Under the pieces are notes generated by a model. That model saw only the letters and a list, made by a program, of their open reading frames with translations, was not told where the DNA came from and ran no database searches. Source: Bacteroidales bacterium Bact_08 (GTDB lineage: Bacteria; Bacteroidota; Bacteroidia; Bacteroidales; UBA932). Taken from it: 64,000 nt of DNA. This document shows positions 1,797-7,043 of this stretch, one piece after another (the stretch's first letter is position 1; each line of letters begins with the position of its first letter). The position numbers and the translations under genes were made by a program. The DNA lies in the NCBI GenBank assembly GCA_001603425.1, contig LUYZ01000002.1, positions 1 through 64,000 of the forward strand. Reading direction: 5' to 3'.

Positions 1797-2885
1797 TTAA
1801 GTCCTCTTTGTTATCTCTTTTACAATTTCATTACCAACATCTTCTGTGGTGAAGCTATTATTTTTACTATGTTTATCAATTTTTAGATCTGGTGTAACAA
1901 CTCCATTTTGAATTGTGTTATAGCATGCAAGTTCTAGATGATTAGCAGCATCATTATATTTTAGCTCTCTTAACATCATTGCTGCCGATAGTATTGTTGC
2001 TACAGGGTTTGCAATATTTTTGCCAGCTGCCTCTGGGTATGACCCATGAATTGGTTCGAATAGTTTGTGTTTCTCTCCAAGAGAGGCAGAGGGTAGCGTT
2101 CCAATTGAGCCACTGAGCACTCCAGATATATCACTTAGTATATCACCAAACATATTTTCTGTTAGTATAATATCAAATTTAGATGGGTTTGATACTAGTT
2201 GCATAGCTGCATTGTCTACAAACATATACTCTAAATCTATTTGAGAGTAACTCTCTTCTTTAATTTTAGTAACGACCGATCTCCATAATCTAGATGTCTC
2301 TAAAACATTAGCTTTATCTACAAGAGTTACCTTTTTTCTTCTTTTCATTGCAAGATCCAAAGCTATTTTGGCAACTCTCTCTATCTCAGTTGAGGTATAT
2401 CGGCAAGTGTCATAGGCCTCCATGCCATTTTCCTCTGTTGCGCTTGGTTTTCCAAAATATATTCCACTAGTTAGCTCTCTGACAATAATTAAATCGACAT
2501 TATTTATAATCTCTCTTTTTAATGGTGAGCTATCATAAAGAGAGGGGTGTATTTTAAGTGGGCGAATATTTGCAAATAGTCCAAGATCTTTTCTCATTTT
2601 TAAAAGCCCTTGCTCTGGTCTAATTTTGGATTTGGGGTTGTTATCATATTTAGGATCACCAATTGCTCCAAAAAGGATAGCATCACTATCTCTGCATAGT
2701 TGATCGGTTTCTGAAGGGTAGGGGTTTCCATATTTATTTATAGCAGTAGCTCCAATATAACCATAGCTAAATTCAAATTCTATTTCATATATTTTTCCGA
2801 TTGCATTTAGGCATTTAACTGCTTGTTCAATAATTTCTGGTCCTATGCCATCTCCAGGTAAAAGTGCTATTTTATTTTTTTTCAT
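1797..2885 (-). CDS. leuB: 3-isopropylmalate dehydrogenase
   Basis: LLPGDGIGPEII N-terminus, VRELTSGIYFG, ENMFGDILSDISGVLSGSIGTLPSASLG; third gene of the leu operon. Confidence 0.95.
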   Translation of the reverse strand: MKKNKIALLPGDGIGPEIIEQAVKCLNAIGKIYEIEFEFSYGYIGATAINKYGNPYPSETDQLCRDSDAILFGAIGDPKYDNNPKSKIRPEQGLLKMRKDLGLFANIRPLKIHPSLYDSSPLKREIINNVDLIIVRELTSGIYFGKPSATEENGMEAYDTCRYTSTEIERVAKIALDLAMKRRKKVTLVDKANVLETSRLWRSVVTKIKEESYSQIDLEYMFVDNAAMQLVSNPSKFDIILTENMFGDILSDISGVLSGSIGTLPSASLGEKHKLFEPIHGSYPEAAGKNIANPVATILSAAMMLRELKYNDAANHLELACYNTIQNGVVTPDLKIDKHSKNNSFTTEDVGNEIVKEITKRT

Positions 2886-4803
2886 AACTCTCTATCTCTT
2901 TTATATTTGCTAATAGGTAATCAATTGTATCGTAATTCTTAATAAAGCACTCCTGTCTAAAAAGATCTAGTTCAAAACTCTCTTTAGTATTGTTCTCTTT
3001 AATAACTATCTCTTTTTTAGAGATATCTATAATAAGTGTTATATTTTTATTATCTCTATTTAGTTTAAATATCTCTTCTATAAATTCGCTGCTGACTTGA
3101 ACAGGTAGTAGCTTATTATTAAGAGCATTAGTTTTAAATATGTCGGCAAAAAAGCTAGATACCACAGCTTTAAATCCATAGTCGGTAATGGCCCAAGCTG
3201 CATGCTCTCTGCTGGAGCCACATCCAAAATTTTTGCCAGCTACCAAAATTTTACCATCACCTTTCAAAAGTTGAGGTCTATCAAAGAATAGTTTTTCGCC
3301 AAATCCCTCTCTAGATGTAGTTTTGAGAAATCTTGCTGGGATAATCTGATCTGTATCAATATTCTCTAACTCTATAACAACACATTGAGATTCAATTATC
3401 GTGTTTACTTGTATTGGGTTTGAACTTAGAAAATCTTGTGGGTTTGCAATCTTACCAGTTAGAGCCGATGCTGCAGCTACTCCAACACCACATAGTATTG
3501 TTCTTGCTCCTGGACCCTGTCTGCCTTCAAAATTTCTATTTGAAGTTGATAGACAGATTTTACCAGGTGGAATTTTATCTTCATTCATTGCTAGACAAGC
3601 CGAGCATCCTGGCTCTCTAATTTCAAATCCAGCATCTCTTATTATATCTCCAAGTCCCTCCTTCTCTATCTGTTCTTGAACCTCTTTTGAACCGGGAACC
3701 AACCAAACAGTTGTATCTATTGCCTTTGTTCTCCCTTTTACAATCGTGGCAAAGCGTCTAAAATCTTCTATTCGTCCATTGGTGCAGCTTCCAACAAAAA
3801 TATAATCGATCGCTTTACCCTCCATTCTCTCTCCCATTTTAAAACCCATATACTCCAAGCCTTTTATATTATCGTCCAAAAGGTTGTATGGTATTTTGTT
3901 GTTTATCTCAATAGCGGCGGCTGGATTGGTCCCAAAGGTTACCATTGGTTTAAGATTAGAGACGTTAAACTTCAATTTTTTGTGATAATACGCATCTTTA
4001 TCGCTTTTTAGATTTAGCCATCTCTCTTTTGCTAGACTCCATTGTTCTTCTTTTGGAGAGTACTCCCTATTATTCAAGTACTCTAATGTTTTATCATCTG
4101 GTGCAACAATACCCCCTCTTGCTCCCATCTCTATTGACATATTACAAATTGTCATTCTCTCTTCAATCGAGAGATTAGATATTGTCTCTCCTGTGAATTC
4201 TACAAAATAGCCAGTTCCTCCAGATGTTCCTATTTGTGAAATAATATACAAAATAATATCTTTTGCCTCTACTCCCTCTGATAGATTACCAGTTATCTCT
4301 ATCAGCATCTGTTTTGGTTTATTTTGTATTATAGATTGTGTGGCAAGAACCATCTCCACTTCGCTTGTACCAATGCCAAATGCAATATTTCCTAAAGCAC
4401 CATGTGTAGATGTGTGACTATCTCCACATACTATGGTCATTCCACATTGTGTAATGCCTAGCTGAGGACCAATAATATGTACTATCCCGTTGTTTTTATG
4501 ATTCAATGGGAAATATGAGATATTATGTTTAGTTGTATTTTGTTGCAATCTTTCTAAAGCCTCTTTTGCATCTGACTCCAATGCGGGGTTTGCTTGATTG
4601 ACAGTGGGAATATTGTGATCACATGTTGCAAATGTTTTATCGGGCCTAAATACCTTTACTCCTCTTTTATCTAAAGCACTAAAAGCTTGAGGGCTTGTTA
4701 CTTCGTGGATATAATGCCTATCTATATACAGAACAACACTTTGGTTGTCAATCTCTTTTATTGTATGAGATTCCCAGATTTTATCGATTATTGTTTTTGA
4801 CAT
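2872..4803 (-). CDS. leuCD: 3-isopropylmalate dehydratase, fused large and small subunits (LeuC-LeuD)
   Basis: One continuous ORF: LeuC part (VCGDSHTSTHGALG, VGSCTNGRIEDFR, EPGCSACLAMN) followed by LeuD part (ENIDTDQIIPARFLK, GKNFGCGSSREHAAWAI). The track starts at 4827, but MSKTIIDKIWESH (ATG at 4803) is the more likely start. Confidence 0.93.
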   Translation of the reverse strand: MSKTIIDKIWESHTIKEIDNQSVVLYIDRHYIHEVTSPQAFSALDKRGVKVFRPDKTFATCDHNIPTVNQANPALESDAKEALERLQQNTTKHNISYFPLNHKNNGIVHIIGPQLGITQCGMTIVCGDSHTSTHGALGNIAFGIGTSEVEMVLATQSIIQNKPKQMLIEITGNLSEGVEAKDIILYIISQIGTSGGTGYFVEFTGETISNLSIEERMTICNMSIEMGARGGIVAPDDKTLEYLNNREYSPKEEQWSLAKERWLNLKSDKDAYYHKKLKFNVSNLKPMVTFGTNPAAAIEINNKIPYNLLDDNIKGLEYMGFKMGERMEGKAIDYIFVGSCTNGRIEDFRRFATIVKGRTKAIDTTVWLVPGSKEVQEQIEKEGLGDIIRDAGFEIREPGCSACLAMNEDKIPPGKICLSTSNRNFEGRQGPGARTILCGVGVAAASALTGKIANPQDFLSSNPIQVNTIIESQCVVIELENIDTDQIIPARFLKTTSREGFGEKLFFDRPQLLKGDGKILVAGKNFGCGSSREHAAWAITDYGFKAVVSSFFADIFKTNALNNKLLPVQVSSEFIEEIFKLNRDNKNITLIIDISKKEIVIKENNTKESFELDLFRQECFIKNYDTIDYLLANIKEIESYEKK

Positions 4804-4804
4804 T

Positions 4805-6298
4805 TTAAATAATTTTTGAGATTGCATTTACTAGAGCCTCTGCCGATGCGGTTATAATGTCTGTATTGGCAGAGTAACCATAAAAGACATCTCCTTTGTT
4901 CTCTATTTGAACATGAACTTTCCCTACATCATCACTCCCTCTTGTTATGGCCTGAACAAGAAATTCTTGAAGAATAACCTTCCTATGAACAAGAGCTTTA
5001 ATTGCATTAAATGTTGCATCCACAGGTCCATTCCCGCTACTTGTTGCACAGCATATTTCTCCGTCTATAATTAGTTTTACAGTTGCCATAGGAACAGAGG
5101 ATTTACCACATACAACTTGTAAGAATTTTAACCTAATTCTTTGGTTCATCTTTGTTTTTGTAACACCTGCTATCTCTAACAAATCGTTGTCATTAATCTC
5201 CTTTTTACAATCGGCAAGCTTTAAGAATTTATCGTATGCGCTATCTAGCTCCTCGTGATTAAGCTCAATTGATAATCTTTTAAAATGGTGGTTTAGTGCA
5301 GCCCTTCCACTTCTGGCAGTTAGTGTTATTAATGATTCATTTACACCAACATCAGAGGGGTCTATAATTTCATAGCTCTCTCTGTTTTTAAGTACTCCAT
5401 CTTGATGAATTCCAGAGGAGTGAGCAAATGCATTTCTACCAACTATTGCTTTGTTTGGTTGTACTGGCATTCTCATTAGAGTAGAGACTAATCTGGAAGT
5501 TTTTAAAATTTGTTTTGTGTCAATATCAGTGTAAACTCCTATGTCTTTTCTGCTTTTTATGGCCATTACCACCTCTTCTAAAGCACTATTTCCAGCTCTC
5601 TCTCCAATTCCATTTATTGTTACCTCTGCCTGTCTTGCTCCGTTGATTATCCCAGCAATAGTATTGGCTGTTGCCATTCCAAGATCGTTATGACAATGTG
5701 TAGAAATTATAGCTTTATCTATATTTGCTACGTTATTTATTAAATATTTAATTTTTTCTCCATATTCATATGGTGTGCAATAGCCTGTTGTGTCTGGAAT
5801 ATTTACAACAGTTGCTCCTGCTTTTATTACCGCGTCAATAACTTTGCTTAGATATTCATTATCTGTCCTCCCGGCATCCTCTGCATAGAATTCTATGTCA
5901 TCGGTATATTTTTTTGCATACTTAACGCATGCTATTGCTCTTTGTAGAATATCCTCTTTATTGGAGCGGAATTTATGTGCAATATGCATATCAGAAGTTC
6001 CAATTCCGGTATGTATTCTTTTTCTCTTTGCATAATGAAGTGCATCAGCTGCAACATCGATGTCTTTCTCTACGGCTCGTGTTAGGGCGCATATTACTGA
6101 CTCTTTGATTACTTTTGAGATCTCTACAATTGAGTTAAAGTCTCCAGGGCTAGAGATTGGAAAGCCACACTCAATTATATCTACCTTCATTGCCTCTAGG
6201 GCTTTTGCTAATTCAATTTTTTCAATTGTGTTTAGCTGGCACCCCGGGACCTGTTCTCCGTCTCTTAGAGTGGTGTCGAATAGATAAAGTTTTTGCAT
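4805..6298 (-). CDS. leuA: 2-isopropylmalate synthase
   Basis: [17 protein letters not shown] start, [34 protein letters not shown]; first structural gene of the leu operon. Confidence 0.94.
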
Positions 6299-6321
6299 TT
6301 TTAAATTGGGTTAGTTATTAA

Positions 6322-6350
6322 TAAAAAAACCGCCCTTTTTGGGGCGGTTT
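6322..6350 (-). terminator. Intrinsic terminator (attenuator) between the leucine-rich leader and leuA
   Basis: On the minus strand AAACCGCCC-CAAAAA-GGGCGGTTT followed by a T tract, located 24 nt upstream of the leuA ATG. Confidence 0.88.
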
Positions 6351-6382
6351 AGTCCTTATTTCTTCACAAAACATATATATAC

Positions 6383-6448
6383 CTAACTCCCCTTTTTACA
6401 AAGACCAGGTAGCAGCAGAGAAAGTAGATATAAATATTGTCTAATCAT
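6383..6448 (-). CDS. leuL: leu operon leader peptide (attenuation peptide)
   Basis: 21-codon ORF ATG ATT AGA CAA TAT TTA TAT CTA CTT TCT CTG CTG CTA CCT GGT CTT TGT AAA AAG GGG AGT TAG = MIRQYLYLLSLLLPGLCKKGS. Seven Leu codons of 21, including runs of two and three, just upstream of the intrinsic terminator and leuA. Not in the supplied ORF track. Confidence 0.85.
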   Translation of the reverse strand: MIRQYLYLLSLLLPGLCKKGS

Positions 6449-6481
6449 AACAGCGCTAAGTTATGAATTTTTTTAAAACTG

Positions 6482-6510
6482 CAAATTATTTTTAATAAAA
6501 AATTAACAAG
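6482..6510 (-). promoter_or_regulatory. Candidate promoter of the leu operon
   Basis: Minus strand CTTG ... TAATTTG with about 18 nt spacing, about 35 nt upstream of the leader ATG; imperfect match to the Bacteroidetes consensus. Confidence 0.4.
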
Positions 6511-6635: not shown

Positions 6636-7043
6636 CTATTTTTTAGCAATAAAATTGTCAATGGAAATTTTGCCTGGTCCAATAATAAATAGTATCAAAA
6701 ATACTGTTAAATATAGTAGAGCTAGCTCTCCATTTCCTTCTCCTACTAAAATAGAGTTGTGAATTACAAAGAATGCCATTGCCATTGTTGTTATCATAGG
6801 GATTAGAGCTAAACGGTAAAGAAGCCCCACAATAACTCCTGCAGAGCAGATAAGTTCTGCGAAAATTGCAAGTGATAGTCCAATCTCACCCCACATAAAA
6901 TTGGGGGCTATAGCGCTAAAATTCATAAGTTTTGCCCATCCATGAGTCATTAGCATACCGCCAAAAACTACTCTTAGAATAAATAGTGAAATAGATACAC
7001 TTTTGGGAAAATCATTTTTTGGAAATAGTAATTGTTTAATCAT
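6636..7043 (-). CDS. DoxX family membrane protein
   Basis: 135 aa, four hydrophobic helices, LRVVFGGMLMTHGWAKL motif. Confidence 0.85.
   Translation of the reverse strand: MIKQLLFPKNDFPKSVSISLFILRVVFGGMLMTHGWAKLMNFSAIAPNFMWGEIGLSLAIFAELICSAGVIVGLLYRLALIPMITTMAMAFFVIHNSILVGEGNGELALLYLTVFLILFIIGPGKISIDNFIAKK

Follow-up and report, generated by a model that had tools for sequence, protein, structure and literature searches.

Ribosome-mediated attenuation requires a ribosome that follows closely behind RNA polymerase, and translation initiation in Bacteroidales proceeds largely without Shine-Dalgarno pairing. The idea of attenuation in Bacteroidota is not new; among other work, a comparative study by Vitreschak et al. 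(2004, FEMS Microbiol Lett) reportedly listed Bacteroidetes candidates. In Escherichia coli and Salmonella, leuL combines a leader peptide rich in Leu with a protector helix and with antiterminator and terminator hairpins that exclude each other, all directly before leuA. The Salmonella leu attenuator prefers rare CUA control codons; these codons and the theory of sensitive isoacceptors are both treated in PMC1183508. The codons of multivalent ilv leaders match their set of end products (Ile, Val and Leu), and in Sinorhizobium meliloti translation of the trpL leader ORF begins right at the 5′ end of its transcript (PMC7298713). Within the same phylum as the genome studied here, and with the same proposed mechanism, "strong clues" for attenuation at amino-acid operons were briefly reported for Flavobacterium psychrophilum (PMC9723704) and leader-peptide-like sORFs for Bacteroides thetaiotaomicron (PMC7366714). 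The accessible parts of the main text of these reports contain neither a leu leader nor a comparative codon or pairing analysis. As they were the only two found in the literature searched, the remark in an earlier sequence-only reading of this DNA that attenuation is less documented in Bacteroidetes-like genomes is fair; a leu case with the comparative signature described below was not found in that literature.

The window (the whole analysed stretch of 64,000 nt) stems from an 80%-complete Bacteroidales metagenome-assembled genome (MAG) and was compared with other Bacteroidales MAGs. Its minus strand carries leuA, a fused leuCD and leuB, in that order, with identities confirmed by NCBIfam models: 2-isopropylmalate synthase (leuA, 4805..6298; NF002086 and TIGR00973, above cutoff), isopropylmalate dehydratase as a single leuC-leuD fusion ORF of 651 aa (2872..4827; TIGR00170 at residues 9-462 and TIGR00171 at residues 480-640) and 3-isopropylmalate dehydrogenase (leuB, 1797..2885; TIGR00169). 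One relative carries a fusion of leuD with cimA, unlike the leuC-leuD fusion of the window. Upstream of leuA, re-reading of the sequence agreed with the previously noted 21-codon leader ORF (6383..6448, minus strand; MIRQYLYLLSLLLPGLCKKGS*), in which 7 codons specify Leu (TTA CTA CTT ... CTG CTG CTA ... CTT). The predicted control codons CTG CTG CTA (6410..6418, minus strand) match the SLLLLG core of the genus. An intrinsic terminator (6323..6350, minus strand) sits between this leader and leuA, and consists of the hairpin AAACCGCCCC-AAAAA-GGGCGGTTT (6350-6327; –15.0 kcal/mol) and a tract of 7 T (6329-6323). Terminator and T tract are thus as originally proposed, but the hairpin begins 32 nt rather than 33 nt after the stop codon. 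The folding z-score was –2.84.

We read this arrangement as a classical ribosome-mediated transcription attenuator of leuA-leuCD-leuB that would sense leucine shortage, and put the probability of this reading at roughly 0.88. Its basis lies in the anatomy of the locus, its conservation, the correspondence of leader codons to operon content, and the co-variation of both switch helices; the start of transcription, translation of the leader and the response to leucine are inferred. The transcript would begin only a few nt ahead of the leader start codon and be loaded with a ribosome at once. With charged Leu-tRNA plentiful, this ribosome would pass CTG CTG CTA, reach the stop codon and cover region 2 (GGGGAGTTAGGTAT; 6379..6392, minus strand), which overlaps that stop codon, so that the 3:4 hairpin and the T tract could terminate transcription. 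With Leu-tRNA in short supply, the ribosome would instead stall on the Leu run and region 2 would pair with region 3 (GACTAAACCGCCCC; 6341..6354, minus strand), the segment common to antiterminator and terminator according to the pairing tests, delaying or blocking the terminator and allowing leuA to be transcribed. If the leader were left untranslated, region 1 (the Leu codons) would pair with region 2, and the terminator would form.

Equilibrium folding proved uninformative on switching, as the terminator still dominated in the presence of a stalled ribosome, both in the window (0.94) and in most relatives; only a kinetic switch would therefore work, and we relied on shuffles and partner swaps. 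Against dinucleotide shuffles, region 2:3 pairing came out stronger (n=104, mean z –2.48, with 71% at p < 0.05), a test that ignores relatedness, which exchanging partners between species addresses only in part. In all three groups examined by such swaps, native 2:3 and 1:2 pairs beat swapped ones (permutation p = 0.012 to 5e-5). Swapping weakened the 2:3 helix from –19.4 to –15.3 kcal/mol and the 1:2 helix from –19.2 to –15.7 kcal/mol in the window's genus, and from –17.8 to –14.7 and from –22.1 to –16.2 kcal/mol, respectively, in operons with cimA. The antiterminator (2:3) and protector (1:2) pairings hence co-vary between species. Three leaders (L010, L045 and L254), for which the automatic caller had picked the wrong ORF or hairpin, were dropped from these pairing statistics, except that L010 was set by hand.

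The alternative antiterminator helix with the 5′ arm of the terminator was thereby upheld for the leader family overall, whereas the window copy did not rise above chance. Its GGGG...CCGCCCC helix, which the sequence-only reading had called plausible but weak, is present at –11.1 kcal/mol, yet is among the weakest of the set and no better than with a shuffled region 2 (z = +0.55). It is also an outlier in the swaps, where partners taken from relatives gave –13.2 kcal/mol. Together with the single mismatch in the –7 promoter box discussed below, this might indicate that the attenuator family is real but that the window copy is decaying, its antiterminator being too weak and its terminator acting as a near-constant brake. 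We consider such decay unlikely, as the leader frame, the Leu run, the 1:2 protector helix (z –1.82, p 0.045; contained in the MFE structure), the terminator, the T tract and leuA are all intact, and as the MFE structure of the nascent RNA remains the predicted antiterminator until the 3′ arm of the terminator has been made. Under the preferred reading of a working attenuator, induction in the window genome may be shallower than in relatives because of this weak antiterminator. In the window, the sequence CTAACCC between the terminator and leuA (6304-6310) shows complementarity to a portion of region 2 (GUUAG plus GG).

The order leader-terminator-leuA was kept in about 15 genomes of the same genus, with leaders including MNTRINFLLSLLLLGLFNRREGILYKKA, MQRQISIIQSLLLLGLYKSGGASVVH and MNTKSTSISVSLYLLGLLLQRKYRGGDYL, all of which have a terminator behind them. 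It also occurred upstream of leuA in Cryptobacteroides-like relatives, which have a second leader type (ILRLSLLRNFG, SLSLRLLQDFS) with the antiterminator GAAACTC/GAGTTTC, and in more than 20 further Bacteroidales families, with leaders such as MNQSFLHILLSILIILLGKPMGSEQCA. This conservation across the order ran counter to the outcome that the sequence-only reading had named as speaking against it, namely relatives without a conserved Leu-rich leader or terminator. No leader was present at leuA in the four g15-type genomes of the same family or in most genomes in which leuA directly follows ilvC. Likewise, in 20 genomes of other Bacteroidia or Bacteroidota orders, in which leuA often closely follows another gene, no convincing Leu or Ile leader was found directly at leuA.

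Leader codons followed operon content. A paralog of LeuA begins 3.5-4.7 kb after the start of leuA in many families; for one representative, the citramalate synthase model NF042433 was by far the best match, at 654 bits against a strict cutoff of 950, and we therefore refer to this gene, which belongs to the isoleucine route, as cimA-like. At least 2 Ile codons in the 10-codon core were present in 47/47 leaders with an adjacent cimA-like gene (L254, with its miscalled leader, included) versus 6/19 without (Fisher p = 1.3e-9). When collapsed by family, the counts became 24/24 versus 1/3 (p = 0.0085), with only 3 families in the group without cimA. No cimA was found in the window's genus by whole-genome search. 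An exception is family f5, in which four members have a short leader of the Ile plus Leu type but no cimA within 6 kb; leuA lacks a following leuC in two members of this family. The Ile plus Leu leaders of leuA-leuC-leuD-cimA-leuB operons resemble those of multivalent ilv attenuators in matching the end-product set, but here the Ile signal accompanies a cimA-like gene (the citramalate route) rather than ilv genes.

Codon choice within the leaders was biased as well. In the two main groups, CTA made up 2-4% of the Leu codons in leuA genes versus 37-40% in leaders, a preference for rare CUA like that of Salmonella leuL, and in cimA operons the ATT share of Ile codons rose from a background of 0.40 to 0.81 in leaders. 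The window genome itself uses CTA freely (20% of Leu codons) and CTG sparingly (3.2%), and 2/3 of its core codons are CTG. Codons that track operon content and switch helices that co-vary both support the attenuation of the leu operon proposed in the sequence-only reading. Leader codons may in turn serve as a sequence-based readout of the amino acids sensed by an uncultured bacterium, and Leu-only versus Ile plus Leu leaders as a natural series on the evolution of control codons with operon content. A set of attenuators that spans the order, with switches that co-vary and codons that match the operon products, also constitutes comparative evidence for transcription-translation coupling in Bacteroidales.

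A riboswitch, T-box or RNA-binding protein might sense leucine instead, with the leader ORF being incidental; some leucine leaders elsewhere (the actinobacterial LEU element) indeed do not act like classical attenuators (PMC1262725). At gathering score, however, an Rfam scan matched only a tRNA in the window and nothing in the leaders of 18 relatives, the best sub-threshold match being Phe_leader (RF01859; 31.3 bits versus a 55-bit cutoff). Moreover, conservation lies in amino acid content, codon content and alternative pairing rather than in an RNA sequence motif, making a direct RNA or protein sensor very improbable. Since the Rfam scan likewise detected no sequence homology to leuL, the likeness of the Bacteroidales attenuator to leuL is either convergent or too diverged to tell.

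In contrast to leuL, the Bacteroidales leaders lack a Shine-Dalgarno context and follow a TAnnTTTG promoter. In the window, a –33 element TTTG of the Bacteroidota sigma-A type (6482..6485, minus strand) lies 18 nt from the –7 box TAACTTAG (6456..6463, minus strand; TAACTTCG in relatives), which has one mismatch to the consensus TAnnTTTG. Similar –7 boxes precede nearly every leader, and TTTG or TTG occurs at a position similar to that of the –33 element in most relatives. Scanning both strands of the window for mini-ORFs that have at least 5 Leu in 7 codons and a terminator behind them yielded the leu leader as the single instance, versus 0.1 expected per 64 kb from composition-matched shuffles, so that the combination exceeds chance. 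That the hairpin merely terminates an upstream same-strand gene, which ends at 6636, about 190 nt from the leader, and appears from its sequence to be of the DoxX type although the family scan assigned it no family, with the Leu-rich ORF arising by chance, is hardly credible given this low random expectation, the promoter in between, and the conservation and co-variation of leader, codon choice and switch helices.

In the window's genus and in a few close relatives, 8 nt separate the –7 box from the leader AUG (7 nt in the window itself), against mostly 15-50 nt elsewhere. With the consensus box positioned at –12 to –5 (PMC9723704), transcription of the window leader is predicted to start at about 6451, leaving a 5′UTR of 3 nt (3-4 nt in the genus). 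The leu leader of this genus is accordingly predicted to be nearly leaderless. It would resemble S. meliloti trpL, the translation of which begins at the extreme 5′ end of the transcript, although the start site is known for trpL (PMC7298713) and predicted here from promoter spacing. For comparison, the two Bacteroidota reports give about 3.7% of UTRs as shorter than 10 nt in B. thetaiotaomicron (PMC7366714) and 5.5% of mRNAs as leaderless in F. psychrophilum (PMC9723704). In this genus, his leaders showed longer box-to-AUG spacings. We tentatively propose, at a little under even odds, that the leu leader of the genus is translated from a near-leaderless transcript while its his leaders are ordinarily spaced. 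This would mean that immediate, Shine-Dalgarno-independent 5′-end loading is selected for the leu switch, and that coupling in Bacteroidota is close enough for classical attenuation. In the leuA leaders of five Cryptobacteroides-like relatives, a mini-ORF of 4-6 codons opens 5 nt past the –7 box, and the ATGA at its end overlaps the start of the true leader. This overlap suggests a coupled start, the five being related rather than independent cases.

Other amino-acid operons carried comparable leaders. In the window's own genome, as in nine further loci of its genus, hisG is preceded by a His-run leader (MNRFLNIHTLHHHHL... in the own genome) and then a terminator, likely representing a his attenuator. 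The window's own incomplete genome yielded no ilvD, but ilvD of the genus (L131-L141) is preceded by Val/Ile/Leu-rich codons (..VIILVISTV* in L132, for example) and a conserved GGATCC...ACAGGATCCTGT hairpin. The His-run leaders at hisG and the Val/Ile-rich leaders at ilvD were counted as support for attenuation at leu.
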